Made by a program: the position numbers and the translations under genes. A stretch of DNA of 64,000 bases from Parvibaculum sedimenti (GTDB taxonomy: Bacteria; Pseudomonadota; Alphaproteobacteria; Parvibaculales; Parvibaculaceae), in the NCBI RefSeq assembly GCF_009184905.1, contig NZ_WESC01000002.1:124001-188000 (forward strand). The letters are read 5' to 3'. The notes beneath the pieces were generated by a model that was given only the letters and a program-made list of their open reading frames with translations, was not told where the DNA came from and did no database searches. This document shows, piece by piece, positions 11,804 through 32,062 of the stretch. Numbering within the stretch: the first letter of the stretch is position 1; each line of letters begins with the position of its first letter.

Positions 11804-12042
11804 GTCTTCCGCGTTCCTTTGGTTTCGGGTGGCGGCGTGACCTCCAGTGAGCACCCCAGTGCCGCCAAGACTTGAAGTGTCTTGCCGATTTGCGCGGTTG
11901 CCTTGCCTGCTTCGAGATCGACGACGAAGCGCAGGCCGACACCCGCCGCGCCCGCAAGTTCGTCCTGCCGCAGTCCAGCGGCTTTGCGGGTGGTTCGAAC
12001 GATGTTGCCGATTTCTGCAGGCGTGAGTGTTTTTCTGGCCAT
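11800..12042 (-). CDS. hipB: HipB-family XRE antitoxin
   Basis: An 80-residue helix-turn-helix protein, MARKTLTPAEIGNIVRTTRK at the start, with the recognition-helix region QDELAGAAGVGLRFVVDLEAG. A short beta-strand tail follows (CSLEVTPPP) like the dimerisation strand of HipB. It would neutralise the HipA kinase and repress its own operon. Three operator-like palindromes with TTCCCG/CGGGAA half sites lie upstream at about 50-base spacing, supporting autoregulation. The ATG at 12042 was chosen because the longer open frame upstream would read through those operators. Confidence 0.85.
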   Translation of the reverse strand: MARKTLTPAEIGNIVRTTRKAAGLRQDELAGAAGVGLRFVVDLEAGKATAQIGKTLQVLAALGCSLEVTPPPETKGTRKT

Positions 12043-12769: not shown

Positions 12770-15700
12770 GTTTCGATCCACGCCCCCGCGTGAGGGGCGA
12801 CGCGCGCTCGAGTGGCTCGTCGAGGACAAGATCGCGTTTCGATCCGCGCCCCCGCGTGAGGGGCGACCAGGACCGCGACAAGCTCGCCGCGTCTGGTGAC
12901 CAGTTTCGATCCGCGCCCCCGCGTGAGGGGCGACTTGGTGCGTCGGCTGAGGATCAGCCTAGCTGGGAGTTTCGATCCGCGCCCCCGCGTGAGGGGCGAC
13001 ACGTTGCCCGGCACATTGACGACGACAAGGAAAAGTTTCGATCCGCGCCCCCGCGTGAGGGGCGACCGCGCGTACCGGCGGCCGATAGCGTAGACAGTGA
13101 TGTTTCGATCCGCGCCCCCGCGTGAGGGGCGACTGGCTCGACCCGGGAGCCTGGACGGCGTACATGGAGTTTCGATCCGCGCCCCCGCGTGAGGGGCGAC
13201 TCGTTTCCTCAGCCGCCTTCTGGCAGGCTTCGTTGTTTCGATCCGCGCCCCCGCGTGAGGGGCGACCTCACGAAATCAAAGAGGGCGTCGTCATTACCGA
13301 GGTTTCGATCCGCGCCCCCGCGTGAGGGGCGACCCCTCGCCGCCTCCTATTCCGACTTCTTTCGGATGTTTCGATCCGCGCCCCCGCGTGAGGGGCGACC
13401 ATCGGCCATTTTTGCCCTCGATTTATCCAAGATGTTTCGATCCGCGCCCCCGCGTGAGGGGCGACACGTGAACCGCCTGCCCCAGCTCGACGATGACGCG
13501 TTTCGATCCGCGCCCCCGCGTGAGGGGCGACAAGACGCCGGCCTGCCCGCCAGCCTGATCTTCAAGTTTCGATCCGCGCCCCCGCGTGAGGGGCGACGCG
13601 CTGTTCGTTACTGCGGGCGTGGACGTGCAAGAGTTTCGATCCGCGCCCCCGCGTGAGGGGCGACGAGATCAGCGGCGATGCCTGGCGCTCATGGATCGTT
13701 TCGATCCGCGCCCCCGCGTGAGGGGCGACACGCATGCAAAGCTCACAACCATCCTCTGGATGGGTTTCGATCCGCGCCCCCGCGTGAGGGGCGACTCGTC
13801 GGAATCTTTGGTTCCATCCTCTTGGTGTGGTTTCGATCCGCGCCCCCGCGTGAGGGGCGACCACCCGCAAGACGGAATGGTACGGCACGAGCGGAGTTTC
13901 GATCCGCGCCCCCGCGTGAGGGGCGACCCTCGTTTTGAGAGAAAAATCATCATATACGATGTTTCGATCCGCGCCCCCGCGTGAGGGGCGACGATCGGCA
14001 TCGGCGGAATCGTTGAGGCCCTTGCTGTTTCGATCCGCGCCCCCGCGTGAGGGGCGACGCCATGCCTGAGCCGCAATTGCGGTATTGATTGGTTTCGATC
14101 CGCGCCCCCGCGTGAGGGGCGACTATCCCGCACCGCCGCCCTGGTCACCGGATTGGCTGTTTCGATCCGCGCCCCCGCGTGAGGGGCGACCGGCAGGAGG
14201 GCATGCACTAGCTCGGCCGGAAGAGTTTCGATCCGCGCCCCCGCGTGAGGGGCGACCCTGGCCGCGTGGTTCGGACATCGGTTCGGCGGTGTTTCGATCC
14301 GCGCCCCCGCGTGAGGGGCGACTCGCGGCCAGCGTGTCGACGCCATACTTCCGCATGTTTCGATCCGCGCCCCCGCGTGAGGGGCGACCCGCCCGCGCCG
14401 CACGATGGTCTCCATCATGCCGAGTTTCGATCCGCGCCCCCGCGTGAGGGGCGACCTTTCGGAACGTTCCCGGTCTATCTGCTTCAGCAGTTTCGATCCG
14501 CGCCCCCGCGTGAGGGGCGACTATTGGTCGAGGTCGGGGACGTGATATTGCTCGGTTTCGATCCGCGCCCCCGCGTGAGGGGCGACGTCTCGTCGGCCGA
14601 CGCCAACGACATCGCCAAGGTTTCGATCCGCGCCCCCGCGTGAGGGGCGACTATGTGCTCGGCGCGGCCGAGACGTGGCTTGAGGCGTTTCGATCCGCGC
14701 CCCCGCGTGAGGGGCGACAGTCCTGCGAGCACATGGCTCGCCTGCTCGGCGAGTTTCGATCCGCGCCCCCGCGTGAGGGGCGACGGCGGCGAGCAGCTTG
14801 TCCAGCGACGACGTGTCGTTTCGATCCGCGCCCCCGCGTGAGGGGCGACCAGCGAAAGTGACCGTCCCGAAGCCGTCCGAGGTTTCGATCCGCGCCCCCG
14901 CGTGAGGGGCGACCGGCGGCGAGCAAGGTCTATGACCTCTTCGTCTGGTTTCGATCCGCGCCCCCGCGTGAGGGGCGACGACGTTGCACGAAATCGGCCG
15001 GGCGATCTGGGATGTTTCGATCCGCGCCCCCGCGTGAGGGGCGACCATGTCTTTCGTCTTCCAACCTGCGTTGGAGGACGTTTCGATCCGCGCCCCCGCG
15101 TGAGGGGCGACTCCTCGGGCAGGCCCGCATCGTCGATCGCTTCGGCGTTTCGATCCGCGCCCCCGCGTGAGGGGCGACCCTCCGGCAGGCCCGCGTCGTC
15201 GATTGCTTCGGCGTTTCGATCCGCGCCCCCGCGTGAGGGGCGACCGTAGGTCTTGGTCGAGCGATACGTCAGCATCAGTTTCGATCCGCGCCCCCGCGTG
15301 AGGGGCGACGTCGGCGTCGGTCCCCAAAGCTCGCGGGTATAGCGTTTCGATCCGCGCCCCCGCGTGAGGGGCGACCGCGTCCATACGCCGATGGTGCTTT
15401 CGGTGCAGGTTTCGATCCGCGCCCCCGCGTGAGGGGCGACCATCGTGCCTACCGCGCTCCGCCCGCAGGATCAGGTTTCGATCCGCGCCCCCGCGTGAGG
15501 GGCGACCGGTTGACCCGGAGCGCGCCCGCGAAGCCGAGCAGGTTTCGATCCGCGCCCCCGCGTGAGGGGCGACTATACAAATCCATCCGCCTGACCAGTT
15601 CAGACTGTTTCGATCCGCGCCCCCGCGTGAGGGGCGACCTAGTCCGCCTACATTGGTCTGGACTTGTACCGTGTTTCGATCCGCGCCCCCGCGTGAGGGG

Positions 15701-18700
15701 CGACATTGGGGCAACGGAAGCCGAGTGACTCTTTTTGCCGTTTCGATCCGCGCCCCCGCGTGAGGGGCGACCGCATCGGCCTCAACCAGCAGCCGGGGGA
15801 ATGGTGGTTTCGATCCGCGCCCCCGCGTGAGGGGCGACCTCGCATTGCGGCGATAGGTGACGATGCGCGCCAGAGTTTCGATCCGCGCCCCCGCGTGAGG
15901 GGCGACAGCCTCGTCGACGCGCATCGTCTGCGTGCCATTGAGTTTCGATCCGCGCCCCCGCGTGAGGGGCGACAGCACTTCATACCCGTCTGTGGCATCA
16001 ATTACCGGTTTCGATCCGCGCCCCCGCGTGAGGGGCGACGCCCGGCTTCGGCCGGGCCTTTCCGAATGCCACGTTTCGATCCGCGCCCCCGCGTGAGGGG
16101 CGACGCGCTTATCGTCGAGATACGCCTCTTCGAGTTTGGCGTTTCGATCCGCGCCCCCGCGTGAGGGGCGACCCGCACAAGGTCAAGACCGCTACCGACC
16201 TCAAGGTGTTTCGATCCGCGCCCCCGCGTGAGGGGCGACGACCGAGCGCGTCGACGAGACTGCGCTCGTGGAGGTTTCGATCCGCGCCCCCGCGTGAGGG
16301 GCGACCTGTGGCAGACCTCGAAAAACTAAAGGTGGAAGTTTCGATCCGCGCCCCCGCGTGAGGGGCGACGCCGGTTGGCGCGTCATTGTTGCGCGTACAC
16401 CCGTTTCGATCCGCGCCCCCGCGTGAGGGGCGACCGGCGATCTGAGCCGCAAGCTGCGCCTCAACAGTGTTTCGATCCGCGCCCCCGCGTGAGGGGCGAC
16501 CCTGTGCGTAGTTGCGGGCATACCTATTGTTGATGTTTCGATCCGCGCCCCCGCGTGAGGGGCGACCCTTCTGGTCGATCACGTCGGCGAGCACCGACAA
16601 GTTTCGATCCGCGCCCCCGCGTGAGGGGCGACGTGCGCCGCCTCACGAAGCGCCATGCTTCGGAAAGTTTCGATCCGCGCCCCCGCGTGAGGGGCGACCA
16701 GCGAGCCGCGCGCGCAGCGCGAGGGTCTGGAAGTTTCGATCCGCGCCCCCGCGTGAGGGGCGACTGGTGTGGGGCGCATCTCAATGACCTCCTACGAAGT
16801 TTCGATCCGCGCCCCCGCGTGAGGGGCGACCGCCGCACGCTGCTTTTGATGCCCCGCTGGGGACAGTTTCGATCCGCGCCCCCGCGTGAGGGGCGACAAG
16901 GTGCAAGGCAAGCGCGCGATCCTTGCGAAGTTTCGATCCGCGCCCCCGCGTGAGGGGCGACCCCGTGCGACGGTTCATCACTTCGCCGTAGGCGGTGTTT
17001 CGATCCGCGCCCCCGCGTGAGGGGCGACACGGCGATCTGAGCCGCAAGCTGCGCCTCAGTAGTGTTTCGATCCGCGCCCCCGCGTGAGGGGCGACCAAGT
17101 CTTCCGGCGGTTTCGCTGGAACGTATGCCGTTTCGATCCGCGCCCCCGCGTGAGGGGCGACCTGCGCCGCGCGCACCGGCTTCACAGCCTTATTCGGTTT
17201 CGATCCGCGCCCCCGCGTGAGGGGCGACAGGTCGACAGAGAACGCATGTGCCAGCGACTTGAGGTTTCGATCCGCGCCCCCGCGTGAGGGGCGACAGCGA
17301 AGACCCGCGTGCCTTCCGCTGCTTCGAGGTGTTTCGATCCGCGCCCCCGCGTGAGGGGCGACCCACCGCCGGAGCCCGGTGGCGCACCACGATCACGTTT
17401 CGATCCGCGCCCCCGCGTGAGGGGCGACCGACCAACCTCGAAATGATCGTTTACGAGGCGAAGTTTCGATCCGCGCCCCCGCGTGAGGGGCGACCAGATA
17501 CTCGGTAGCCCATTGTCCTTTGGACCAGAGTTTCGATCCGCGCCCCCGCGTGAGGGGCGACCCGAAAAGACGCTGTATTATCTCGACCTCATCGCCGTTT
17601 CGATCCGCGCCCCCGCGTGAGGGGCGACGCCGCGAGAAGCTGGCCCACGGCGCGTGTCAGGCTGTTTCGATCCGCGCCCCCGCGTGAGGGGCGACATTGG
17701 CTCGTGGACATATGCGGACGCCTCTCGTGGGTTTCGATCCGCGCCCCCGCGTGAGGGGCGACCCGACGCGCGACGCATTTCCAAGCTTGTGCTGGTGTTT
17801 CGATCCGCGCCCCCGCGTGAGGGGCGACCGTAGCCATCAGTGCAGCGAGCTAAGCGTCCTGTTTCGATCCGCGCCCCCGCGTGAGGGGCGACTTGGCTCG
17901 TGGACATATGCGGACGCCTCTCATGGGTTTCGATCCGCGCCCCCGCGTGAGGGGCGACCAAGACGTGAGTTTCGTTCGGGCGCCAGCGGATGTTTCGATC
18001 CGCGCCCCCGCGTGAGGGGCGACGCGAGGAAATGCGGGGCGACATGATCGACCACAGGTTTCGATCCGCGCCCCCGCGTGAGGGGCGACCGACGCGCGAC
18101 GCATTTCCAAGCTTGTGCTGATGTTTCGATCTGCGCCCCCGCGTGAGGGGCGACTGGCCCATTTTGCTTTATCGGCGGGTTGATAGGCGTTTCGATCCGC
18201 GCCCCCGCGTGAGGGGCGACCTCGGCAAATATTTCCGACATTGAGCGGGGGCGGGGTTTCGATCCGCGCCCCCGCGTGAGGGGCGACGCCGACGCGCGAC
18301 GCATTTCCAAGCTTGTGCTGATGTTTCGATCCGCGCCCCCGCGTGAGGGGCGACGACCCACGACTACGACCCGCTTGACGGCTGAGCCGTTTCGATCCGC
18401 GCCCCCGCGTGAGGGGCGACGCTCCAACCATGGCCCCGATCGTCAACCAGAACAGCGTTTCGATCCGCGCCCCCGCGTGAGGGGCGACACCTCACCCGAG
18501 ACGTTCAGGTCCAGCTTGTCGGTTTCGATCCGCGCCCCCGCGTGAGGGGCGACTCTGCCGCTTTTGCCAGCGATGCGCGAAGCGCCCGGTTTCGATCCGC
18601 GCCCCCGCGTGAGGGGCGACAGCCGGGGCAACGAGGCATGGGCCGGTGGACATGGTTTCGATCCGCGCCCCCGCGTGAGGGGCGACAGGAGCTGCATGAG

Positions 18701-21700
18701 CGGCTTGCCGGCGTCATCATCGTTTCGATCCGCGCCCCCGCGTGAGGGGCGACCGGGCGTCCGTGAGGTCTTCAAGGGCTTCGAGATGTTTCGATCCGCG
18801 CCCCCGCGTGAGGGGCGACGTCGCAGGCGGAAAGAAGAGCATCACGCTGACGACGTTTCGATCCGCGCCCCCGCGTGAGGGGCGACAGTGCTTCGTCATA
18901 AAATCCGCCAGTCTGTGCGCTGTTTCGATCCGCGCCCCCGCGTGAGGGGCGACACCTCGCCGCGAGGCACGCTCGTGCGCCTCAGGAGTTTCGATCCGCG
19001 CCCCCGCGTGAGGGGCGACCTTCTTCGGCCGTGCGAGCGACGTACTCATCGCCGTTTCGATCCGCGCCCCCGCGTGAGGGGCGACCCGGGCGTCCGTGAG
19101 GTCTTCAAGGGCTTCGTGATGTTTCGATCCGCGCCCCCGCGTGAGGGGCGACGCTTTCGCATCTGGCGGCCGGTACCGATGGCAGGGTTTCGATCCGCGC
19201 CCCCGCGTGAGGGGCGACGATAGGGCCGTCTTGCCGCCGCCAGTAGGAAGCTGTTTCGATCCGCGCCCCCGCGTGAGGGGCGACCACAAGGAAGTTCGTG
19301 CCCGCTACTACGACAAGGTTTCGATCCGCGCCCCCGCGTGAGGGGCGACGACTGCCAGACTGACGGGCACTATCTCTGCGCGGTTTCGATCCGCGCCCCC
19401 GCGTGAGGGGCGACATTGGCTCGTGGACATATGCGGACGCCTCTCGTGGGTTTCGATCCGCGCCCCCGCGTGAGGGGCGACCATTGGCTCGTGGACATAT
19501 GCGGACGCCTCTCGTGGGTTTCGATCCGCGCCCCCGCGTGAGGGGCGACAACCACATGTTCGGGAGCGCGAAATGAGCAAGAGGTTTCGATCCGCGCCCC
19601 CGCGTGAGGGGCGACGCCTCCAGGAATGAGACGTTATAGGCATCGCGCACGTTTCGATCCGCGCCCCCGCGTGAGGGGCGACGCCGACGCGCGACGCATT
19701 TCCAAGCTCGTGCTGATGTTTCGATCCGCGCCCCCGCGTGAGGGGCGACCTCGACGCAGTGGGTGCCGAGGGCGAGCGATATGCGTTTCGATCCGCGCCC
19801 CCGCGTGAGGGGCGACCCCTTGCGCGCCATCGATGGTGCTAGGCCCTTCAAGTTTCGATCCGCGCCCCCGCGTGAGGGGCGACCAAGGGCCGTGACTGGC
19901 GTTCGTTCGGTGTGTGGTTTCGATCCGCGCCCCCGCGTGAGGGGCGACCAAGGGCATCGACGCGCTGTTTCCGAACGCGGATGTTTCGATCCGCGCCCCC
20001 GCGTGAGGGGCGACCGCTCCAACCATGGCCCCGATCGTCAACCCGAACAGCGTTTCGATCCGCGCCCCCGCGTGAGGGGCGACCCGACAACGCGACCGAC
20101 AACGCGACCGACAGTGCGGTTTCGATCCGCGCCCCCGCGTGAGGGGCGACGGCGCAGGTGCGCAAGATCGGTGATAAGACGAAGTTTCGATCCGCGCCCC
20201 CGCGTGAGGGGCGACGCCACCGCGCATGATGCGCTCGGCGAATGAGGCGTTTCGATCCGCGCCCCCGCGTGAGGGGCGACCGACGGCCACGTAGTACTCG
20301 CCGGCGGCGATCGGGTTTCGATCCGCGCCCCCGCGTGAGGGGCGACCAATCTCGGTCGCGGTCCGCACCGTGTCGAGCTGCGTTTCGATCCGCGCCCCCG
20401 CGTGAGGGGCGACAGCCGCGAAGCGTGCGCAGCAACATCAAGTGGATGTTTCGATCCGCGCCCCCGCGTGAGGGGCGACCACGATGTCGAGCGGTATCAG
20501 CTCATGGTTTCGGTTTCGATCCGCGCCCCCGCGTGAGGGGCGACGCCGCCGCGACGAATGACGGCTCGCCGATCGGGGGTTTCGATCCGCGCCCCCGCGT
20601 GAGGGGCGACGTGCACGCGCAAGTCCATCATCAACGAGTGCATGTTTCGATCCGCGCCCCCGCGTGAGGGGCGACTTGTCCGCCTGTGGTGCCCTTGGCG
20701 ATCTTACCCCCCGTTTCGATCCGCGCCCCCGCGTGAGGGGCGACCGCAGAACACGACGTTCTTGGTTTCGTTTTCGGTGTTTCGATCCGCGCCCCCGCGT
20801 GAGGGGCGACGCTCTACGCCATGTACCTGCTCGTCACGGCTCGAGTTTCGATCCGCGCCCCCGCGTGAGGGGCGACAACGGGCATAGCCCCCGCCATTCT
20901 CGCCCGTCGCGTTTCGATCCGCGCCCCCGCGTGAGGGGCGACCTCAGGGCGGGGCTCCCGGCTCACGTTGGTGGTGGGTTTCGATCCGCGCCCCCGCGTG
21001 AGGGGCGACGGCTCGAGGTCTACTGGGAATGGGGCTCGGGTCAGTTTCGATCCGCGCCCCCGCGTGAGGGGCGACCCGACGCGCGACGCATTTCCAAGCT
21101 CGTGCTGATGTTTCGATCCGCGCCCCCGCGTGAGGGGCGACAAGGCCCTCGGGGTGGACCTGATAGATCGGCTTGTTTCGATCCGCGCCCCCGCGTGAGG
21201 GGCGACTCGCTAACCCCTTATAATATATATCTTTTTAAAAGTTTCGATCCGCGCCCCCGCGTGAGGGGCGACCTTTTCATGATAGTTCCCTCGTTCTCGA
21301 TTGCCGGTTTCGATCCGCGCCCCCGCGTGAGGGGCGACAACGAAAAGAGCCCGTCGTTCACCGTGTCGGACGAGTTTCGATCCGCGCCCCCGCGTGAGGG
21401 GCGACTAGCGAGCGGGCGGCGGATGAGATCGCCTGCATGGTTTCGATCCGCGCCCCCGCGTGAGGGGCGACCACAACACTTGCTCGGCTTGCGGAGAACA
21501 ATGCGTTTCGATCCGCGCCCCCGCGTGAGGGGCGACGCCGCCGCGACGAATGACGGCTCGCCGATCGGGGGTTTCGATCCGCGCCCCCGCGTGAGGGGCG
21601 ACGGGGCGAGGACAGTGATTTCGTCCGCGTCCGCGTGTTTCGATCCGCGCCCCCGCGTGAGGGGCGACGCTCATGCCGTCACCTTTGCTGCCCGCGCCTC

Positions 21701-22465
21701 GATGTTTCGATCCGCGCCCCCGCGTGAGGGGCGACCGAGCCACGGCATGCCCTTGGGGCCGACGGCGTCGTTTCGATCCGCGCCCCCGCGTGAGGGGCGA
21801 CCCGGCAATGGTCAGGTGATCGTGGTCGAGGGCGAGTTTCGATCCGCGCCCCCGCGTGAGGGGCGACCCGGTACGGCTTCCCGGCGCACACCGCGCACCT
21901 GGTTTCGATCCGCGCCCCCGCGTGAGGGGCGACCAGCCACGTGTGCGCGGCCCATTCGTATCATGGTTGTTTCGATCCGCGCCCCCGCGTGAGGGGCGAC
22001 GTCAGGCTGCAATCGGTCGATGATGACGACGGGCGGTTTCGATCCGCGCCCCCGCGTGAGGGGCGACGGCTGGGGGTGCATCATGGCTGAGGTAATGCCG
22101 GTTTCGATCCGCGCCCCCGCGTGAGGGGCGACCGGAGAAAAGAGTGGAACGCGCGGCAAGGAAAGGGTTTCGATCCGCGCCCCCGCGTGAGGGGCGACCA
22201 GCGCCGAGAAGCCCAAGGCCGCTCGAGAGCAGAGTTTCGATCCGCGCCCCCGCGTGAGGGGCGACGGACGACTGCCCGAAGAGCGACGAAAGCCCGAACG
22301 GTTTCGATCCGCGCCCCCGCGTGAGGGGCGACCCCGACACGGCGGACGTTCAGACCGGCATCCAGAACGTTTCGATCCGCGCCCCCGCGTGAGGGGCGAC
22401 GGAAACACCTGCGGGCTTATCGTCCATCGGCAGGTTTCGATCCGCGCCCCCGCGTGAGGGGCGAC
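12770..22465 (-). CRISPR. Type I-C CRISPR array, 147 repeats and 146 spacers
   Basis: I located 147 copies of a 32-base repeat starting at 12770 and ending at 22465, with unit spacing of 64-69 bases and hence spacers of 32-37 bases. On the plus strand each repeat begins GTTTCGATC and ends GAGGGGCGAC. On the minus strand it begins GTCGCCCCTC and ends GGATCGAAAC, the orientation and 5' handle of type I-C crRNAs, with a stem CGCCCC/GGGGCG. The cas operon is transcribed leftward into the array, so the leader is at the right. Two repeats vary: the leader-distal one at 12770 (A instead of G at position 11) and an internal one at 18123 (T instead of C at position 10). Seven families of repeated or near-identical spacers are present. 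The many short reading frames across this stretch are artefacts of the repeat. Confidence 0.98.
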
Positions 22466-22681
22466 GGTAGATTTGTAACCTGATGACAGAGTTGAGAAAA
22501 TAGCGCCGATAGCGCGAATCTGCCCAAAGGTGAACAGCAGGCCTGCCCTCCTTCCATTGCCATCCAGAATTTGCTCACGATTTCAAAGAGCTGGTGCCAG
22601 TGCGAACCTGTCGGGAATCTCCGGCACCCTTGGGGTTCGCGCCGACTCGATCGGGAGACGCAAGTTGCTCACGCCTCACGC
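22466..22681 (-). promoter_or_regulatory. CRISPR leader between cas2 and the array
   Basis: The 216 bases between the cas2 stop and the first repeat should carry the array promoter and the integration signals read by Cas1-Cas2. The 50 bases next to the array are relatively AT-rich (for example GAGAAAATAG on the plus strand). Further in are two interleaved inverted repeats: GGTGCC at 22593-22598 with GGCACC at 22623-22628, and GCGAACC at 22602-22608 with GGTTCGC at 22634-22640. I cannot identify a promoter with confidence. Confidence 0.7.
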
Positions 22682-22972
22682 CTACACGATCAGCGTACCC
22701 CCTAGATCCTGAGCCGGCCTGGCGCCAACATGCTCCACCTTACGGCGCCAATTCGAACCCAGATAGTAGTAGCGCAGGCTGTCCGATTTCGGATTGATGA
22801 GTGCTTCCAGCTGTGCTTTCAGCATGGCCCACTGCGCCGGATCCACCTCGATCTCAAACACCGAATATTGTACGCGCTGACCGAAATCGCGGCAGGCTTT
22901 GGCCACAGCCCGCAGCCGGCCCGGCCCGCCCGCCTCCGAAGTGGCGACATCGTAGGTGACAAGCACAAGCAT
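22682..22972 (-). CDS. cas2: CRISPR-associated endonuclease Cas2
   Basis: A 96-residue ferredoxin-fold protein starting MLVLVTYDVAT, with the conserved Asp after the first beta strand. SVFEIEVDPAQW and the C-terminal strands complete the fold. With Cas1 it forms the integrase complex that inserts new spacers at the leader end. It is the last gene of the cas operon, six bases after cas1, and borders the leader. Length is normal for type I-C Cas2. Confidence 0.95.
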   Translation of the reverse strand: MLVLVTYDVATSEAGGPGRLRAVAKACRDFGQRVQYSVFEIEVDPAQWAMLKAQLEALINPKSDSLRYYYLGSNWRRKVEHVGARPAQDLGGTLIV

Positions 22973-22978
22973 GGCGGT

Positions 22979-24013
22979 CTATTTCCAGAACCAGGGAGGA
23001 TAAGCATCGAGATCGCCGCGAAGATGACGCGCAAGCATTTGCGCCTGCAGATACGGCACAAGCCCGAGTGGTGCTTTCTCCTCGAGGAAGAGGTGTTGTC
23101 GCTCTTCCTTCTTGCGGCTCTGCCAGGCGGCAAGAACCGTCTTGCGCGCCTCGTCGCGGAGCAGCACTGCGCCGCCTTCCCGCGTTTCGAAATCTCCGGC
23201 GCGAAGCTGGCGCCGGTTGATCAGCGACAGCGCCAGCCTGTCGGCAAGCACCGGACGAAGCTCCTCCATCAGGTCGAGCGCCAGACTTGGCCGGCCGGGA
23301 CGATCGCGATGCAAAAATCCAACCGACGGATCGAGACCGACGCTCTCGCAGGCGCTACGGCAATCATGCGTCAGAAGCGTGTAAAGAAACGACAGAAGGG
23401 CGTTAACGGGGTCCAGAGGAGGACGCCGGGAGCGCCCTGTCCAGCGCATCTCGGGGTCCGGCGTCCTGATCAACCGGTCGAAGACTGAAAAGTAGAGATT
23501 GGCCGCTTCTCCTTCTGAACCACGCAACTGATCCGTCCCTTCGTTCGACAGTTCCACCCTCCGCAGGATGTCGGCCATCCGCCCCACCACGCTTGATATT
23601 GTCGAGCGGCTGGCGGCATCGAACTCATCGCCATAGTCGCGCAGCGCGCGCATCAGCACCGAGCGTTGGTTGGCGACCTTGCCCACGACGATGGACCTGA
23701 CAATGGCCTCCGGAGTTTCCGATACGCGATATTGCGCGCGCCGCAGCAAAACATTGCCTGTTGTCGGGCCCTCCACGCGCGCCTGGAAGCGGCCGTTACG
23801 ATCCAGAAGGACGATGGAAATGCCGGCCGTCGCGCAAGCCGCCATCAATGCAGGGGAGACATATATCGGACCGAAAACCACCGCCGAAGCCAGCATGTGC
23901 AGAGGCACACGAGCTCGCTCCTCGCCCTCGACCTCTGCGACCAGATTCGCGCCGTCCTTGCGCAGCGTCGCGCCCTCCGTAGTGATGTAAACCGTGTTAA
24001 GCAGCTTTTTCAC
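22979..24013 (-). CDS. cas1: CRISPR-associated integrase Cas1 (type I-C)
   Basis: A 344-residue Cas1. The N-terminal beta domain begins KKLLNTVYITTEGATLRKDG. The helical catalytic domain holds the Glu in RGSEGEAANLYF, the His in VGFLHRDRPGRPS and the acidic pair in ALDLMEELRPV, the metal ligands of Cas1. Start is GTG at 24013, overlapping the cas4 stop (GTGA at 24010-24013), which indicates translational coupling. It integrates spacers together with Cas2; Cas4 of the same operon would trim prespacers and select the PAM. Confidence 0.96.
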   Translation of the reverse strand: MKKLLNTVYITTEGATLRKDGANLVAEVEGEERARVPLHMLASAVVFGPIYVSPALMAACATAGISIVLLDRNGRFQARVEGPTTGNVLLRRAQYRVSETPEAIVRSIVVGKVANQRSVLMRALRDYGDEFDAASRSTISSVVGRMADILRRVELSNEGTDQLRGSEGEAANLYFSVFDRLIRTPDPEMRWTGRSRRPPLDPVNALLSFLYTLLTHDCRSACESVGLDPSVGFLHRDRPGRPSLALDLMEELRPVLADRLALSLINRRQLRAGDFETREGGAVLLRDEARKTVLAAWQSRKKEERQHLFLEEKAPLGLVPYLQAQMLARHLRGDLDAYPPWFWK

Positions 24014-24684
24014 GATGTTGGCTTCTCAGCAATGAGGCGAGAGACCATTCTGGCTCGCCACTCGCGAACCGGCCGTGTCACCGCGTCCGGCCGGCAAAGT
24101 TCAAGTAGCGAACAGGCCCGGCATCGTGTCCGGAGGACGGTCGGAGGCGGCGTGACGCCAGACGCGAAGACATCCGCCACCGCTGCCACCGTATCTTCCG
24201 TCAACCGGCGCAGTTCTGCGTCGAAGGGCACGACAAGGCGGCGTTTGGTCTCGGCATAGAAAAGAGCGCCCTCCGGCACTGAAACCCGCATCATTTCTTC
24301 TAGACATAGTGCCTGCGCGCAGAGCTGCACTTCGTCTGCCCGGTGCAGCTTCGGTTTGCCGCGCTTGAATTCGACAGGATAGGGCACTTCGGCGCCGTCC
24401 ACGCCCCGGTGAAACTCGACGAGATCGGCGGTGCCCGCAATGTTGAGACGCCTGGAGGCCAGGGGCAGTGCCATCACGCGGCGTACGCCGCGCGCCCTGC
24501 GCGATCCCCCTTTGTCGGTAACAGAATGCAGAACCTGACCTTCCGCCGTAAAACGATTCTCGGCCCAAGCGCGTTCAATATGGATCAGCGCCGTTTGCCG
24601 CAAACAATAGACCGCATGCTGAAGAGCGGAGAGCGGGACAGGATCACTCTCTTCGGTGAAAGGTTCTCCCGTACCGTTCTCCAT
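24010..24684 (-). CDS. cas4: CRISPR-associated exonuclease Cas4
   Basis: A 224-residue RecB-like nuclease. The Fe-S cysteines are one in LQHAVYCLRQTAL near the N-terminus and three in CRACSLLELCRP near the C-terminus. The nuclease core includes GTADLVEFHR (Asp), YPVEFKRGKPK (Glu-x-Lys) and the QLCAQALCLEEM motif. ATG at 24684 is four bases after the cas7 stop; a longer open frame upstream only overlaps cas7. Its role is prespacer trimming and PAM definition. Confidence 0.94.
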   Translation of the reverse strand: MENGTGEPFTEESDPVPLSALQHAVYCLRQTALIHIERAWAENRFTAEGQVLHSVTDKGGSRRARGVRRVMALPLASRRLNIAGTADLVEFHRGVDGAEVPYPVEFKRGKPKLHRADEVQLCAQALCLEEMMRVSVPEGALFYAETKRRLVVPFDAELRRLTEDTVAAVADVFASGVTPPPTVLRTRCRACSLLELCRPDAVTRPVREWRARMVSRLIAEKPTS

Positions 24685-24688
24685 CGTT

Positions 24689-25642
24689 TCACAGCTTCTC
24701 CATGATTTCGATACCGGCCGGGAGGTTCCCCCGGTCAATCGAAACGATGTAATCCGCGAAGGTGCGGGCCGGTGCATAATTGCTGATTCGGCTGTCGACT
24801 TCGCGGAATTCGCCGTCGATGTTGCGGCCGACCTTTACGCGATCGAAGAGCGCATGAGCCGGCGTATTGCCCAGCGCGTTCTCGTGCTTGAACACAATGA
24901 GCTTGCGCGTCGACATTTCGCCGCGTGCAGCGGAGCGATCATGCTCGAACATGCTCGACAAGGCTTCGAACAAAAGTGTGAGATCGGAATCGGAAAAACC
25001 CGTGCGTTCGGCAAGTTTGGCCGAAATGAAGCCATGTGCCCGGTAAAGCGCGTAAGGTACGATATATTTGCGCCCCATGGTCCGGTTGTCGGTGCGGTCG
25101 TTTTCATCTTCACCGCCCTCCGCACGCTGTTTCTTCTCGGCTTCGTTTGTCGCCGCCATGCGCGTAATCGAAATTTCTTGTGGCACGATCGGCTCGATGG
25201 AACTCGCGAAGGTTATCTGCACCGGGCCGCGCACCTGCCCGGCATTGATGCCCGTCGACATGACGGCGCCGAAGGTGCGGACGTCGAAGAAGTTGCGGCA
25301 CATGAAGTCACGAAGCAGTATGGCTTCAGCGTCGTCCTTCGGATTGAGTTTGGGCTCCTTATCGACCTTTGGGTCGTTGGGACGAAGCGCCTTGTAGGCT
25401 TGCCGGTGCTTGTCGTTGAGAATGGCCGCCTCCTCGACATAGATGTGGTGACCCTCAGCAGCCCCCTTTGCAAGGTCGACATAGTTACGCACCTTCCGCT
25501 TGAGGCTTACATCCGAAACCAGGCCGTGGTTGGTTTCAGGGTCGAGCCGCGGCAGATTGCCGGCGTCGGGATCGCCGTTAGGGTTTCCCTTGGCGACGTC
25601 AAAGAGCAGAACAAAATCATAGCGGTTGGTAATCGCGGTCAT
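24689..25642 (-). CDS. cas7: Cas7 (Csd2), type I-C Cascade backbone
   Basis: A 317-residue RAMP protein that forms the crRNA-binding backbone of the type I-C effector. FVLLFDVAKGNPNGDPDAGNL near the N-terminus is the classical Cas7 signature. DVRTFGAVMSTGINAGQVRGP and YALYRAHGFISAKLAERTGF are also typical of Csd2. Its ATG shares one base with the TAA of cas8c (TAATG, 25642), so translation is coupled. Several copies assemble per crRNA, which fits its place as a highly conserved middle gene. Confidence 0.96.
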   Translation of the reverse strand: MTAITNRYDFVLLFDVAKGNPNGDPDAGNLPRLDPETNHGLVSDVSLKRKVRNYVDLAKGAAEGHHIYVEEAAILNDKHRQAYKALRPNDPKVDKEPKLNPKDDAEAILLRDFMCRNFFDVRTFGAVMSTGINAGQVRGPVQITFASSIEPIVPQEISITRMAATNEAEKKQRAEGGEDENDRTDNRTMGRKYIVPYALYRAHGFISAKLAERTGFSDSDLTLLFEALSSMFEHDRSAARGEMSTRKLIVFKHENALGNTPAHALFDRVKVGRNIDGEFREVDSRISNYAPARTFADYIVSIDRGNLPAGIEIMEKL

Positions 25643-27420
25643 TATGCGGCCTCCTCCGTGTCTGCCGTAGCACGTTTGCGGAAGAATTCTCCGCGCTGAT
25701 GGTAGTAGCCGAGCCCGAACATCGCCTGCTCGGCGGCGTTGAGCGAGGCCGGGAACGGATCGTCTTCCGGCGTCATCGCTTCCATGATCGCGCCGATCGC
25801 GCGTTCCAGATTGATGCGCTGGCCGGGACGCTTCTTGCCCACCTTCGCAAGATGGTTGGCCGATCCGCGATCGAGCAGGGCAAAAACATTTCGTGGCGTT
25901 GCCGAGGCCGAGCCGTAGAATTTATCCTTGATGGTCGCGTTGACATTACGGCCGAGCGCCGCAGTCTGCGCCTGCTCATAGACGGCGAAGAGTCGCCCGA
26001 GCAGATAGCCTTTGTTCCTGTTTTCCGGATCAAGTGCCACAGGCACCTCCCTGCGTTTGTCGCCACTATTCGGCTTCATTCCAAAGTTTCGGACGAGTAC
26101 CGCCCGCAGAATGCTCGCGCGCAGCGCATTGATCTCTCCATCGGCGCGAATGCGCGCCAGCACGGTCGAAAGCAGCGTCAGCGGATAGCGGGTTCCGCTC
26201 AGGATCGACCGCATCCACTCGCCGGCGAGATTGGGCGGCACGTTTTCGCTTTTGCCCAATAGTGCCAATTCCCGCAGATGCCGCCAAAGCGACGGATACG
26301 GCTCGCGCCAGGCCGGTTCGACGCGCATGTCGTCGACGAAACGCCGATAGTTTTCCGCCAACACGCCAAAATCGTTTTCAAAATAAAACCGGATCGACAG
26401 ACGCGCGGCGTTGGGCGCGAGGCCGAGTACATAGAACCGCACGCCTTTCGACAGCTTTGCGTCGAGCGCCTCGATCGGTTCGCCCTTGCGCAGCCTTTCC
26501 AGCAGAATGGCTATCTTCTTCGCTGCCGCCTCATCTGACGCCGCGTCATCCGGGTCGCTGAACATTGCGTAGAATGTGCCTTCCGCGAGCTCAGCTGATT
26601 CCTCGTCGGAGGTGTCGGCCCAGAATACGGTCGAGGCATCGCCGATCTGGATTCGGTGTTTGCTGTCCCGTTCGAGGAAGCGATTAAGGGCGGCTGTGTA
26701 GGCGAAAGCCGCGACTTCCGAGACCGGCGCGTTGTCGCCTTGCTTGTGCTCGTAGGACTCGAATGCGTCGAGGTTGAACGAAACGATCGACCCGCCAGAG
26801 GATTGTCCGCCCCAGACGCCTTTTATGGCGGGATGCAACCTCGCGACGGGCCCCCGATTTCCCGTCACAAGGCAGACCTGGGCGTCGGTGGTGTTCTCCC
26901 CGCCGATATGGGTCCACAGAGCCTTAGCTGCCGGCCGGGCGTGGAGCCAGAGGCTCTGTGGCCGGTCCGCCTCCAGAACAAAGATCACGTTCTGGTCTTT
27001 GAGTTCGTCCGACCAGAGAGGTTCGGCAAATTGTTCGGGTGTCCATCGCCTTAAAAACAAAAGCAACGCTTTCAGCCCAGCATCGGCAGTGCCGCCTAGC
27101 TCCCTTTCGTGTCGCTCCTTGAACGCGGCGTGTTCTTGCGCCGTACGCTTTCCCTCCCCGGCTGTCACGCCAAGCACGTAAGAGGTCTTATCCCACAAGA
27201 AGCTCGGAGCAATGCCGGCTGTGCGTTTCGCAGGCTGCGGCACCGCCATGGGACGCGGCTTGCGCTTTCGACCTTCGCCGTCTCGCCAATCGATAACATT
27301 CGCAACCGAGCCATCCTCGTTCAGGCTGACGATCACGCCGATATTCTGCATCGAATAGCCGAAGGGCGGCGCATCTGGCAGGCGGTCATAGGCGCGGACG
27401 AGCGAGGCGAGGATGCTCAT
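25642..27420 (-). CDS. cas8c: Cas8c (Csd1), type I-C large subunit
   Basis: A 592-residue large subunit that recognises the PAM and recruits Cas3. It starts MSILASLVRAYDRLPDAPPFG and contains IVSLNEDGSVANVIDWR, the FLWDKTSYVLGVTAG segment and VFWADTSDEE, all characteristic of Csd1 proteins. The ATG at 27420 overlaps the cas5c stop (ATGA, 27417-27420); the longer open frame upstream is only cas5c read in another phase. In type I-C an internal start in this gene produces the small subunit Cas11c. Met codons are present in the C-terminal part, but I cannot fix the site. Confidence 0.95.
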   Translation of the reverse strand: MSILASLVRAYDRLPDAPPFGYSMQNIGVIVSLNEDGSVANVIDWRDGEGRKRKPRPMAVPQPAKRTAGIAPSFLWDKTSYVLGVTAGEGKRTAQEHAAFKERHERELGGTADAGLKALLLFLRRWTPEQFAEPLWSDELKDQNVIFVLEADRPQSLWLHARPAAKALWTHIGGENTTDAQVCLVTGNRGPVARLHPAIKGVWGGQSSGGSIVSFNLDAFESYEHKQGDNAPVSEVAAFAYTAALNRFLERDSKHRIQIGDASTVFWADTSDEESAELAEGTFYAMFSDPDDAASDEAAAKKIAILLERLRKGEPIEALDAKLSKGVRFYVLGLAPNAARLSIRFYFENDFGVLAENYRRFVDDMRVEPAWREPYPSLWRHLRELALLGKSENVPPNLAGEWMRSILSGTRYPLTLLSTVLARIRADGEINALRASILRAVLVRNFGMKPNSGDKRREVPVALDPENRNKGYLLGRLFAVYEQAQTAALGRNVNATIKDKFYGSASATPRNVFALLDRGSANHLAKVGKKRPGQRINLERAIGAIMEAMTPEDDPFPASLNAAEQAMFGLGYYHQRGEFFRKRATADTEEAA

Positions 27421-28109
27421 TTGCGAATCTCCGCCGAACCGGGCTGGGGCACCTTCATCACGCCGTCTTCGAGGACGGCGCGGAAGAACATCGACGGCTT
27501 GCCCTTTGCCCCATGGTCGATGTCCCACAGCATGAAGCCGAGATCGCGGGGTGCGCCAAAACCGAGATCCCTCGTCTTCTCCAGCGGTTCGGGCATAGGC
27601 GCGTCCGGTTCGATCAGCTCGAAGCAGGCGGCAAATTCCCGCGTGCCGAGGCAGGGCTGGTGAAAGCACTGGCCGCGCCGCGCCCGGCGGCTGAAGATGT
27701 CGAGATGCTTGCCTTCGTTGTCCTCCGCGTCGGCGCGGGGCGTCAGCTCGAAATGCGCCTCGATCACATAGGCGGGCTTGACCAGAACCGTGGAGGCGCG
27801 CTGTTGGCGGTCTTCGTCGACGAGGAGTTGCAGTCCTTCCAGATCGCCACGCTTCATCGCGCTCTTGATCTTGCTGGCAGGTGCCTTGCTGCCGACCTCA
27901 TTTCGCCGAATCGACTGGAACCGGGGTGTCTCCAGGACGTGGATTGCATCGATCGCCCAGCGGATGGCGGGCTTCCAGTGGATCGCTTCAAGGATGCCAC
28001 GCGCGGCGGAGGGCGTCATCACGTCGTAGCTGACGCGCTCGACTTTCATTTCGGGGCGCGTAAAGCAGCCATGGTCGCCCCATACCTTTAATCGGATGCC
28101 AAATGCCAT
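27417..28109 (-). CDS. cas5c: Cas5c (Cas5d), crRNA-processing endonuclease
   Basis: A 230-residue RAMP protein. In type I-C, which lacks Cas6, Cas5 itself cuts pre-crRNA at the base of the repeat stem and stays on the 5' handle. The start MAFGIRLKVWGDHGCFTRPEM and the segment VMTPSAARGILEAIHWKPA are hallmark Cas5d sequences. TLVKPAYVIEAHFEL-like and HLDIFSRRARRGQCFHQPCLG segments follow. GAGGGGAAG lies directly before the ATG at 28109. No cas6 is present in the window, consistent with Cas5c doing the processing. Confidence 0.95.
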   Translation of the reverse strand: MAFGIRLKVWGDHGCFTRPEMKVERVSYDVMTPSAARGILEAIHWKPAIRWAIDAIHVLETPRFQSIRRNEVGSKAPASKIKSAMKRGDLEGLQLLVDEDRQQRASTVLVKPAYVIEAHFELTPRADAEDNEGKHLDIFSRRARRGQCFHQPCLGTREFAACFELIEPDAPMPEPLEKTRDLGFGAPRDLGFMLWDIDHGAKGKPSMFFRAVLEDGVMKVPQPGSAEIRK

Positions 28110-28164
28110 CTTCCCCTCGCCGCTTAAAATGGCCACCACTGTCAGGCTTCTGACTCATCCTTGA

Positions 28165-30417
28165 TCAAATTATTGAATTCTCTGTCGTCAGATATTCAGC
28201 ATCTTCCCACAATAGCCCAATCTCGTCCTTATACAAATCTTCGCTTTTCAGGACAGCAAACTGATCGCCACGCAAATCCGGCCTTACGAAGGTCACATGT
28301 CCGCTGCGAATCAACAAGGCCCGAGCTCGCGGGGGCACCTGCACGACATAACTCTGCAACTTTCGCGCAAGACTGCCGGACGACAGTTGTTCGATGGAGA
28401 GTTCCGCGACAGCCTTCCTTGCCCGATCATCGAACTGAATGATCACGGGCTCCATCCTGCTTTCGATCATGCGGAACTTTTCAGCAACCGTGCGGAAGGC
28501 GAAGTCCGCACCATCCCGATTGATGACGAAATCCTTGAAAATTCCTCTTTCGTCGAGCTTTGACCCGGCCCGCCAATAGACTTCGCCGAAATAATTTTCA
28601 ATTGCGTCGAGCGATAGCAGATCGTCGTGCCGGTCGACCATACGGCTCATGTCGCCGATCAGGCCGGCAATCTCGCGGGGCGGCTTGTAGTCCGGCGTGG
28701 AAAAGACGGTGACCACGCTCTCCTGCCATGGATTCCGGCCTTCCCGATTGCAGCGTCCCGCAGCCTGGACGATGCTGTCGAGTCCCGCCTCCGCGCGCCA
28801 GACCTTCGGAAAGTCGACATCCACGCCTGCCTCTATCAAGCTCGTCGCAATGACACGGCAAGTTCGTCCGTCTTTCAGTCGCTTACGTACGCCAGTGAGA
28901 ATCTCACGCCGATGCGCCGCGCACTGCCGCGTTGTCAGATGCACCAACCCGTCAAGCCCTGCCTCTCCGCCTTCCCTGTAGAGCTCCAGCGCATGCTTGC
29001 GGCTGTTGACGATGACCAGCGCCTGCGGCTCCCTGCCGATGGCCCCTATCAAGGCGTGGTTATCCATCTCGCCGACGCGCTCGATGCGGGCGCGGCGCAG
29101 CCGGAGAGCGAGATCATGCGGGTCCGGCGCCAATTCACGGTCCTTCTGAAGATCGAGTCCCTCGGGAAAGCCTGGCGCGCCGAGCGCCGGCTGTGTGGCG
29201 GTACACAGAACGATCGTACAGCCGAAGAGGCACGCCAGCGTATCCAGCATGCGAACGCAAGGGATGAGCAAGTGCCGTGGAATCGTCTGCGCCTCATCAA
29301 GTATGATGATTGACCCTGCGATGTTGTGCAACTTGCGCGCCTTCGACGTCCTTGTGGCGAAGAGGCTTTCGAAGAGCTGAACATTCGTGGTTATGACAAT
29401 CGGCGCCGCCCAGTCTTCCATGGCGAGCTTCAGGCGGTCGCGGCTGGTTGGTCTCCGTTTCGTGTCCGGATGCTCCTCGTCGATCGCCGAGTGATGTTCG
29501 AGAATGTGTTCGCTGCTCAGAACGTCGCGGAAGATATCCGCAGTCTGATCGACGATGGATGTGAAAGGTATCGTATAGATGATCCGGCGATGTCCGTGCG
29601 CCTTGGCGTGGTCCAGCGCAAAGCCGAGCGAAGCCAGGGTCTTGCCTCCGCCTGTCGGGACCGTCAATGTGAAGAGGCCGGGAGACATCCCGGCCTTGCC
29701 GCGCACATGGGTCAGAATGTAACCGCGCAGTTGGTTGATATCCCCGTCACCGCGCTTCCCGGTCATATAGGCGTTAAAACGGACCAGAAATTCCGGCAGC
29801 ATGTCCTGAAGCGAAGCCCAATGCCGGTCGGGCTGCCGTCCATCCAACGTCGAATAGAAGCGCTCGGTATCCTTGAAATCCGCATCCACTAGGCAGGAAA
29901 AGAGAAAGCGCACGACGACCGAAAAGTCGAAACCTGCATAGGCCTTTCGTTTACCTATCGCCTCCATGAGTCGATTCGGCATCAGGCGCGCCAGATCGAA
30001 GGCAAGTTCGTCGCGCCAGACAGGGTCGAGCTTGTCCTCATAACGCTCGATCCTGCGTTCAAAGCATCCGATTTCGTCCGTATTCCGATCAGGCAGACCG
30101 GCATGGTGTCCCAGAATCCCGTAGGCAATGAATTCCACCATGGCGCCATCGGCGCTATCTGCCGCGACGAGTTTTTTCAGCAGGGCGGCCCCGGCAGTCG
30201 AATGATCGACGCGAATGTTCTGGCCTTCAAGCCTTCGTTGAAAATCCGGATTGTATTTGCCGAGATCATGGAAGAGGCCTGCTAGATATGCGGCCTTATC
30301 CAAACCGATGTGCTCAGCAAGGTCGGAAGCCAATTTGGCTACGGCCAACAAGTGCTCTTGGAGCGGTTGCCAATCGCTTTTATCTCGAGAGGTGCCGGAA
30401 TGAGCAAAATACGGCAT
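28165..30417 (-). CDS. cas3: Cas3 nuclease-helicase (type I-C)
   Basis: A 750-residue fusion of HD nuclease and SF2 helicase. HD motifs: His22 in QEHLL, HD at 50-51 in LFHDLGKY, His72 in VDHST and the GHH at about 104-106. Helicase motifs: Walker A PTGGGKT at 254-260, DEAQ at 374-377 (the family usually has DExH), the SLIEAGVDVDFP motif at 526-537 and QAAGRCNREGR at 551-561. It degrades DNA bound by Cascade. It is the first gene of the operon; a 55-base gap separates it from cas5c. All catalytic motifs look intact, so interference should work. Confidence 0.96.
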   Translation of the reverse strand: MPYFAHSGTSRDKSDWQPLQEHLLAVAKLASDLAEHIGLDKAAYLAGLFHDLGKYNPDFQRRLEGQNIRVDHSTAGAALLKKLVAADSADGAMVEFIAYGILGHHAGLPDRNTDEIGCFERRIERYEDKLDPVWRDELAFDLARLMPNRLMEAIGKRKAYAGFDFSVVVRFLFSCLVDADFKDTERFYSTLDGRQPDRHWASLQDMLPEFLVRFNAYMTGKRGDGDINQLRGYILTHVRGKAGMSPGLFTLTVPTGGGKTLASLGFALDHAKAHGHRRIIYTIPFTSIVDQTADIFRDVLSSEHILEHHSAIDEEHPDTKRRPTSRDRLKLAMEDWAAPIVITTNVQLFESLFATRTSKARKLHNIAGSIIILDEAQTIPRHLLIPCVRMLDTLACLFGCTIVLCTATQPALGAPGFPEGLDLQKDRELAPDPHDLALRLRRARIERVGEMDNHALIGAIGREPQALVIVNSRKHALELYREGGEAGLDGLVHLTTRQCAAHRREILTGVRKRLKDGRTCRVIATSLIEAGVDVDFPKVWRAEAGLDSIVQAAGRCNREGRNPWQESVVTVFSTPDYKPPREIAGLIGDMSRMVDRHDDLLSLDAIENYFGEVYWRAGSKLDERGIFKDFVINRDGADFAFRTVAEKFRMIESRMEPVIIQFDDRARKAVAELSIEQLSSGSLARKLQSYVVQVPPRARALLIRSGHVTFVRPDLRGDQFAVLKSEDLYKDEIGLLWEDAEYLTTENSII

Positions 30418-30949: not shown

Positions 30950-32062
30950 CTATTCAGCCGACCTCTCTTGCCGTGCAAAGATTCTGGCTGCTTGCGCCAA
31001 GGCGGGATTGGCTCTGAACAAGGACAGAAAAGCCACGGTCCCCTCGTCCATAGTTTCGTCCATCGACCGGCCCAGCGCGCCAAGCACGTGCCGACGACGC
31101 TCATCTGACGGCACGCCATAGTGCTGAAGGGTTGTATTGAGCGAGTTGTGACCGAGATTGAGCGACCAGGCCCACAGCTCTTCCACCGTATCGCACATTC
31201 CGAGCCCCAAGCGGGTCAGCGTCTTTCGGAATGCGTGAGGCGTGTAGTAGCTGATGCCCGCATCCTCAAATGCGCGTTTGAATATCCGTCTTATGGGTGC
31301 GGAGTTAGACCAGCATTCGCGCGCAATCTCGCTATCGCCGTTGGCACCCAGCTCACCGTTCCGAGGAAAGAGCGGATCGTCGGGTGAATAGCCGCGCTGG
31401 CAGAGCTCCAGCGCCCAGTCCGCAACCATCTGCTCGATATCATTGCCAACAGGAAAGAATGACGTCACCTGGCTCTTCGAGAATTTGACGCGAACGACGC
31501 CTGCATCCTGAAAGACCGTCCTTGAGACCATATCGAGATGCCTGAGATGCAATGAGGCAACCGCGTTGACCCTGATCCCCGTCAAATACATGAAAGCAAC
31601 AATTGCCCTGTCCCGGCGAGCATGAAGCGTTTCTCCGGGCATGGTCGAGAGGATGCGGCGGACCTCGTCCGGCGTCGGAACCGGTTTGGGAGGCAGCGTA
31701 CGTGCCAGCATGACCTCACGACGCGGCGGCGCAAAATAATCCACCTCGGTCGCATTCATGCTGCGATAGCCCCTCTGCTCGACGAGCCAGGCAAAGAATG
31801 CGCGACAGTGTCCGAGCGTATGAATGATCGTAGAGGCGCTGAGGGGCTGGCCATCGGCGCGGCTCGCGCGAGTCATCAGATGGTCCTTGAAGCCGATGAT
31901 CTGCTCGCGATGAAGCAGCCTGAAGTCACGATGACGCGTAAAGACCTCAAATTCGGTCAATGCTGACAGCGCCGCATCCATGCTCTTCTCACTGAGCCCT
32001 TTGGCATGCCGGAGATGCGCCTGATACGCCAGACGGCGGCGATCATTTTTCGGGTTCGACAT
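30950..32062 (-). CDS. Tyrosine recombinase (phage-type integrase)
   Basis: A 370-residue recombinase. A SAM-like core-binding domain (about residues 15-110, with SEKSMDAALSALTEFEVFTRH) is followed by the catalytic domain. Catalytic residues visible: Arg in YLTGIRVNAVASLHL, HxxR in PHAFRKTLTRLG, His in LGHNSLNTT and the nucleophile Tyr in LQHYGV. It lacks the DUF4102-type arm domain of the integrase at 9069, so it belongs to another lineage. ATG at 32062 gives the usual family start; the longer frame upstream has a low-complexity start. It is followed upstream by two small DNA-binding proteins and tRNA-Ser. Confidence 0.87.
   Translation of the reverse strand: MSNPKNDRRRLAYQAHLRHAKGLSEKSMDAALSALTEFEVFTRHRDFRLLHREQIIGFKDHLMTRASRADGQPLSASTIIHTLGHCRAFFAWLVEQRGYRSMNATEVDYFAPPRREVMLARTLPPKPVPTPDEVRRILSTMPGETLHARRDRAIVAFMYLTGIRVNAVASLHLRHLDMVSRTVFQDAGVVRVKFSKSQVTSFFPVGNDIEQMVADWALELCQRGYSPDDPLFPRNGELGANGDSEIARECWSNSAPIRRIFKRAFEDAGISYYTPHAFRKTLTRLGLGMCDTVEELWAWSLNLGHNSLNTTLQHYGVPSDERRRHVLGALGRSMDETMDEGTVAFLSLFRANPALAQAARIFARQERSAE

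Follow-up and report, generated by a model that had tools for sequence, protein, structure and literature searches.

A type I-C CRISPR (clustered regularly interspaced short palindromic repeats) system has already been described that captured the same viral region more than once. In the part of their report that bears on this, Rao et al. (2016, PMC5071653) describe two pairs of spacers against LME-1 in Legionella pneumophila Toronto-2005. Each pair lies on overlapping target regions, the older spacer being mismatched in the protospacer adjacent motif (PAM) or the seed and the newer one perfect. Naturally primed acquisition after escape is one interpretation that they offer, and in their passage assay the same protospacer gave two independent spacers. 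Here, we analyze a 64,000-nucleotide stretch of Parvibaculum sedimenti DNA (contig NZ_WESC01000002.1, positions 124,001 to 188,000; hereafter the window), in which a long type I-C array holds seven families of recurrent spacers. The copies of each family share exactly their PAM-proximal edge, and in most families they differ in the seed. We consider it probable that these families arose because phages escaped through seed changes and were then recaptured, probably by priming, at the same PAM.

Three other studies frame what such an array should look like. Biochemistry of the type I-C Cas4-Cas1-Cas2 proteins of Bacillus halodurans, in the sections used here (PMC6519985), shows precise PAM-specific processing without strong Cas4 cleavage at non-PAM sites, and therefore predicts spacers with one exact and one loose edge; that work deals with purified chemistry, whereas we read the edges from natural arrays. 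For the SIRV viruses of Sulfolobus islandicus, the portion of PMC6452263 that concerns us reports protospacer mismatches to natural arrays that are enriched in the seed. There, spacers are compared with virus genomes, while here older and newer spacers are compared within one array. Finally, a review remarks, in the passage relevant here, that a second encounter could conceivably give the same spacer twice (PMC8047081). The Legionella case and ours are alike in subtype and in repeated capture. They differ in that Legionella offers two pairs and a known target, and the present array seven families of up to five copies in exact PAM-edge register, a count over 72 arrays and no exact target. In the literature covered, which lacks most subscription papers, we saw no study that tests recurrent spacers for a seed bias across whole arrays, and we make no claim of priority. 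The focal array richly illustrates a process that is already known, and the seed statistics supply a test that could be extended to larger sets.

Seven spacer families with one fixed edge

The array and its recurrent spacers are as follows, spacers being numbered from the leader (spacer 1, next to the leader, is 22401-22433).

12770..22465, minus strand: type I-C CRISPR array of 147 repeats and 146 spacers; CRISPR RNA (crRNA) sense is minus, the leader end is at 22465, the repeat ends in GAAAC in minus sense, and cas2 lies beyond 22465
17763..17796, minus strand: family A copy 1 (s71, the oldest), 34 bases
18090..18122, minus strand: family A copy 2 (s66), 33 bases, differing from copy 1 at position 2
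18288..18322, minus strand: family A copy 3 (s63), 35 bases, identical to copy 2 across 33 bases
19683..19717, minus strand: family A copy 4 (s42), 35 bases, with an additional change at position 9
21076..21109, minus strand: family A copy 5 (s21, the newest), 34 bases, sequence as copy 4
17696..17730, minus strand: family B copy 1 (s72), 35 bases
17893..17926, minus strand: family B copy 2 (s69), 34 bases, changed at position 4
19415..19449, minus strand: family B copy 3 (s46), 35 bases
19482..19517, minus strand: family B copy 4 (s45), 36 bases, adjoining copy 3
18421..18456, minus strand: family C copy 1 (s61), 36 bases
20015..20051, minus strand: family C copy 2 (s37), 37 bases, changed at position 8
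18754..18787, minus strand: family D copy 1 (s56), 34 bases; the homologous target is a phage DNA adenine methylase gene
19086..19120, minus strand: family D copy 2 (s51), 35 bases, changed at position 4
18687..18721, minus strand: s57, next to D copy 1; its match in this methylase gene lies 224 bases from that of D
18954..18987, minus strand: s53; weak match on the opposite strand of the same gene, perhaps with a 2-base slip from TTC
20545..20578, minus strand: family E copy 1 (s29), 34 bases
21537..21570, minus strand: family E copy 2 (s14), identical to s29
15112..15146, minus strand: family F copy 1 (s111); changes at 9, 18 and 30, all synonymous in one frame
15179..15212, minus strand: family F copy 2 (s110)
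16435..16468, minus strand: family G copy 1 (s91)
17029..17063, minus strand: family G copy 2 (s82), changed at positions 4 and 5

The repeat is 32 bases long (GTCGC...GAAAC type), and 140 of the 146 spacers measure 33-36 bases. Because cas2 and the other cas genes sit to the right on the minus strand, the plus-strand edge beside GTTTC is the 5' end of the spacer, that is, its first base in crRNA sense, and faces the leader. A first-pass annotation of the window had picked out the seven families from the sequence alone, and parsing the whole array returned every one of its starts and lengths.

We compared all spacers with one another on both strands, at offsets of -20 to +20. Twenty-one pairs were clearly similar, all of them on the same strand at offset 0; the sole further pair listed was a weak antisense match (18/22). 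In fact, identity over 30 bases anchored at the PAM edge is bimodal: the 21 pairs score at least 27, everything else scores at most 18, nothing falls at 19-26, and the reverse-complement control also peaks at 18/30. The alignment next to GTTTC that had been claimed for every family therefore stands in 21/21 pairs. At the other end, where up to two bases of variation had been noticed, the edges differ by 0, 1 and 2 bases in 4, 14 and 3 pairs, so that length is unequal in 17 of the 21, every time distally. The additional distal bases of the longer copies of A agree with each other, as do those of B, and we therefore take them to be target flank.

No flanking spacer is co-duplicated in any focal family, nor does any run of two or more spacers occur twice in the focal array; co-duplicated neighbors were one of the observations that the first-pass annotation had named as fatal to its own proposal. 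Copying of array units keeps length and tends to carry neighbors along; neither is observed, and the six families other than E are for this reason best read as independent acquisitions. E cannot be told from a duplication, because its copies are identical and equally long. With that exception, a common PAM edge, a variable distal edge and unduplicated neighbors go together in every family. Uniform sampling by 146 spacers produced a family of at least five in about 0.5% of simulated runs, even when the target sites numbered as few as 500.

The copies are also close in time, as far as array order tells it: their mean distance is 13.7 spacers (P 0.0001 under random placement). A and B alternate along the array, with s72 (B), s71 (A), s69 (B), s66 and s63 (A), s46 and s45 (B), then s42 and s21 (A). 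This clustering is weaker in the other arrays that we surveyed (36 families, adjacent pairs excluded, P 0.02).

Reuse of exact sites across 72 arrays

The survey comprised 2798 spacers in 72 arrays, the focal one and 71 others that are mostly I-C; some may belong elsewhere, since the repeats of Nitrospira and of L082 measure 37 bases. Loci duplicating the focal array (L001, L002, L010, L091) were removed, and L145 (47 spacers, orientation unclear) was excluded; L116, L148 and L152 were retained after re-orientation or re-bounding, and the low-complexity pair L115 81/86 was kept in the counts. No spacer is common to the focal array and the other 71.

Forty-nine families emerged from 23 loci. 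Leaving aside six tandem identical pairs, the PAM edge is exactly common to 63 family pairs (43 families) and off by one base in six more, all from other arrays (L046, L140, L142, L150). Distal edges are equal in 23 of these 69 pairs. The edge pattern is thus general for such systems and no peculiarity of the focal array. Overlaps at different sites are few, with four same-strand pairs shifted by 15-18 bases and seven antisense pairs. Given that TTC has a density of 0.0146 per strand position in the phage loci retrieved, equal use of sites would give about 1.15 shifted or antisense overlaps for each exact coincidence, against the 11 and 63 pairs seen. The exact site is preferred, either because it is intrinsically hot or because a changed target is recaptured there; in low-change families the seed bias described below favors recapture.

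A Rhizobiaceae metagenome-assembled genome (L084:11544-21030) provides a second good case. It contains several recurrent families, and spacers overlap there on both strands; reading within this array shows TTC ahead of some spacers.

In low-change families, changes concentrate in the seed

Counting from the PAM side and taking positions 1-8 as the seed, the copies differ at 2 and 9 in A, 4 in B, 8 in C, 4 in D, 4 and 5 in G, and 9, 18 and 30 in F. In the families with one or two changes, six of seven sites lie at 1-8 (expected 1.65, P 0.001), and each of the five has a seed change (P 0.002). Seed differences between copies in 5/5 families would suit escape-driven updating of the kind that Rao et al. 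(2016) suggest.

The seed idea arose on the focal array and was then applied to the 71 others. There, 24/56 sites of all families lie at 1-8 (expected 13.3, P 0.001). Restricting the count to families with one or two changes gives 10/17 sites (expected 4.0, P 0.002) and a seed change in 10/14 families (expected 3.85, P 0.0009). This class was defined with 38 of the 71 arrays already in view, and the remaining 33 were tested separately: five of six families (P 0.009) and five of eight sites (P 0.02) again point to the seed. Position 1 might carry processing noise; without it, the low-change families of the whole set have 14/22 sites at 2-8 (P 0.00002). The last eight spacer positions hold 3/24 sites in the same families.

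Two controls from other types were small. Twelve type I-E arrays (520 spacers) contained five pairs with one or two changes, at 32; 2 and 23; 25; 2 and 5; and 3, so that 4/7 sites lie at 1-8, the same direction in a number too small to judge. As a mirror, 25 type II arrays (433 spacers, orientation assumed) gave two informative pairs, one each way.

In families with three or more changes, all changes share a single codon phase in 5 of 11 (F, one in L060, two in L084, one in L142), a pattern that we would ascribe to divergence of coding sequence in the phage. Recapture seems to come in two kinds that overlap to some extent, one of diverged relatives and one of nearly identical, seed-changed phages. 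The seed bias and the Legionella precedent are additions to what the first-pass annotation had proposed.

Targets and PAM

Family D leads to a homologous target gene. Its back-translated peptide GVREVFKGF retrieved three contigs from IMG/VR, and the D spacers match L209 and L210 at 29/35 and 28/34 positions, with TTC exactly at the common edge. The gene encodes a phage DNA adenine methylase (PHROG 56) of alphaproteobacterial phages. The spacer next to D, s57, had no role in selecting these contigs, and it matches this gene in L209 and L210 at 28/35 positions; its site is on the strand of the D site, at a distance of 224 bases, and likewise follows TTC. In 83 related phage loci (963 kb; L209 to L211 plus the best 80 of a longer list), the best s57 match reaches 31/35, while decoys made of reversed spacers always have at least nine mismatches. 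All 41 s57 sites with at most nine mismatches read TTC (18) or CTC (23) at the PAM position, only these two because a conserved glutamate codon lies there. A weak match of s53 (26/34) falls on the other strand of the gene, at a score barely above decoys; in several homologues it begins two bases inside TTC, as a slipped spacer would. On these matches, s57, s56, s51 and perhaps s53, among the seven consecutive spacers s51-s57, would derive from a stretch of some 560 bases in a single gene, which is what primed uptake predicts. The spacers between them, s52, s54 and s55, had no match in the methylase gene region.

Sibling arrays give a further view of the PAM, for a spacer that runs across the first bases of a second spacer in its own array reveals the three bases preceding that second one. 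Fourteen distinct sites read TTC (6), TTT (2), TCC (1), CTC (1) or something else (4: GCA twice, TCG, AAA), the last four coming from low-complexity spacers. Four of the six TTC sites are clean, since one of the six is itself of low complexity and another two represent a single site in variant form.

Other searches yielded little. The leader side of the array (8 kb) found two weak matches among phage records; 19 matching plasmid records were taken as other arrays or chance (8/10 of those fetched carry arrays). Exact cores of A and B and degenerate peptides of A, B and F found nothing in IMG/VR, and two contigs hit by a shorter B peptide were both chance frames. Beyond s57 and D, matches of the array to 50 viral records (E 0.0008 to 0.05) were taken as chance without individual check. 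Against 46 genomes of the strain and its relatives, matches were weak, and one of them, on contig 15 of G018, is a family D homologue. The spacer s84 at first looked like a conserved host gene, yet it could not be aligned without gaps to any of the own-genome stretches retrieved. Among the sibling arrays compared with phage records (3 of 11 large ones), L142 and L084 gave none, and L140 found one gut-phage record, probably via repeats.

Probable escape and recapture, and the alternatives

To explain these results, we propose that each family represents one protospacer of a recurring phage lineage, which would have been captured repeatedly by the type I-C adaptation machinery. Cas4-Cas1-Cas2 would cut exactly at the PAM and keep that edge constant, the other end being loose so that lengths differ by 0-2 bases; the edge pattern is shown here, and the enzyme step is borrowed from published work. 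Where copies differ by one or two changes, the phage would in most families have changed in the seed and thereby weakened interference by the older spacer. The mismatched crRNA could still recruit the complex and would probably prime a new capture, in which the same PAM site is retaken in its new form. Family F, with its three synonymous changes, would be a diverged relative rather than a point escape. Priming is likely, and the focal array resembles a chronicle in which viruses escape and are captured anew.

Several observations weigh against this proposal. Searches of phages, plasmids, IMG/VR and genomes returned no exact protospacer for any family, and the PAMs of the true phages are thus unseen. 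The shared TTC PAM that the first-pass annotation had anticipated holds at the D edge in L209 and L210, yet these are 2 of 9 IMG/VR loci and are identical to each other over the site; the others read TTG, TCG, TCC, ACC or AGC. Neither of two prophage homologues has TTC there. One of the two, a congener homologue as close as L209 (L337:1827-2651, a phage adenine methylase identical to D at positions 6-26 and different at 4 and 5) reads TTG. Phages vary in the codon at D positions 4-5, which encodes Glu or Val in the two spacers and Ala, Gln or Lys in homologues, and the D change could be ordinary phage variation. Outside the focal array, 4 of the 14 low-change families have no change at 1-8: L064 (24), L073 (12), one in L084 (35) and one in L115 (24, 33).

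Families with three or more changes are not a clean contrast. They have 14/42 sites at 1-8 (expected 10.0, P 0.10), 14/39 without focal F (P 0.06), and 10/24 in the 33 later arrays (P 0.04), where seven of the ten sites come from two families with changes in or near one run (L140 68/72, L116 19/21). This lowers our confidence in seed escape somewhat and slightly raises that in hot sites. Some recaptures are unchanged, too. In A, s66 and s63 (33 and 35 long) agree over 33 bases and s42 and s21 (35 and 34) likewise agree; three B copies agree in sequence, and seven other survey families are unchanged yet unequal in length. Seed escape does not explain these, which may reflect interference-driven capture, escape through the PAM or an anti-CRISPR, or hot sites.

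The most serious rival holds that naive or interference-driven capture acted at intrinsically hot PAM sites of standing, diverse phages, the seed differences being ordinary and no escape having occurred. The excess of exact-site recurrence over neighboring-site overlap suits this as well, and so do the unchanged recaptures and the natural variability of the D codon. What hot sites do not predict is the concentration of changes in the seed, and this is present in arrays that played no part in forming the idea; we regard this explanation as unlikely, while giving it real weight. The first-pass annotation had named primed and hotspot adaptation as possibilities. Hot sites could also give repeats, but they do not predict the seed bias. 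Its broader proposal, independent acquisition at one PAM from diverging targets, gains support from the edges, the neighbors, the clustering in array order and the codon-spaced or seed-leaning changes, for every family except E.

The idea that array units were duplicated or recombined and then mutated in place deserves much less credence. The identical, equal-length copies of E would fit it, and so would findings elsewhere: the six tandem identical pairs belong to other arrays, and the I-E array L161 repeats a block of two spacers. For the focal families, it is opposed by the lack of duplicated flanking spacers, by the distally unequal lengths and by the codon spacing or seed bias of the changes. 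Moreover, only 2 of the 147 repeats carry a change, of one base each (18123-18154, adjoining the family A copy s66, and the terminal repeat, 12770-12801). Recombination between arrays has been reported for other species, so strains might have passed blocks of spacers from one sibling array to another. The focal array contains no repeated block of at least two spacers, and 26 congeners included no sister strain, judging by their cas1-cas7 DNA; we consider such transfer extremely improbable.

The combination of a fixed PAM edge and a loose far edge separates true recapture from array duplication, and arrays by themselves allow a search for seed escapes when no phage sequence is known. That independent arrays share the seed bias suggests that the cycle of escape and update, as proposed from the two Legionella pairs, may be common in type I-C hosts. 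More tentatively, and with considerable doubt, we envision that type I arrays in general keep a readable log of such cycles, a seed-mutated target steering adaptation to the same PAM so that the spacer is reissued in altered form instead of only gaining neighbors. If this were true, its signature would be an excess of exact over neighboring sites together with a seed bias across arrays, and escape would become measurable without any phage sequence.

The surrounding locus

Encoded on the minus strand of the window is a full type I-C CRISPR-Cas locus, with genes in the order cas3-cas5c-cas8c-cas7-cas4-cas1-cas2. In a profile search, every gene scored above the cut-off of at least one family model, including the subtype-specific models Csd1, Csd2, Cas5c and Cas1c as well as the Cas2, Cas4 and Cas3 domain models.

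22466..22681, minus strand: putative leader in the gap between cas2 and the array, assigned by position alone
22682..22972, minus strand: cas2 (NCBIfam TIGR01573)
22979..24013, minus strand: cas1 (Cas1c; TIGR03640, 515 bits against a cut-off of 385)
24010..24777, minus strand: cas4 (TIGR00372)
24689..25642, minus strand: cas7 (Csd2; TIGR02589)
25642..27669, minus strand: cas8c (Csd1; TIGR01863 over residues 86-668)
27417..28139, minus strand: cas5c (TIGR01876)
28165..30417, minus strand: cas3 (HD and helicase; TIGR01596, TIGR01587)

The open reading frame called for cas8c overlaps cas5c, and its real start is probably more internal. Compared with 26 congeners, the cas1-cas7 DNA found only short chance stretches. 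On the cas3 side stand a tyrosine integrase, next to cas3 (30950-32323), and tRNA-Ser (cga) (33467-33556), and a tRNA-Gly lies at the far end of the array; the locus may belong to a tRNA-linked island.

Two single spacers stand out by composition. With 8/34 G+C, s19 (21207-21240) is strongly AT-rich in a G+C-rich array and perhaps stems from an unlike element, and s97 (16040-16072) contains a perfect 7-base G+C hairpin resembling an intrinsic terminator, so that its crRNA may fold on itself. Outside the array, 10547-11854 encodes a HipA-like toxin kinase including its N-terminal domain.

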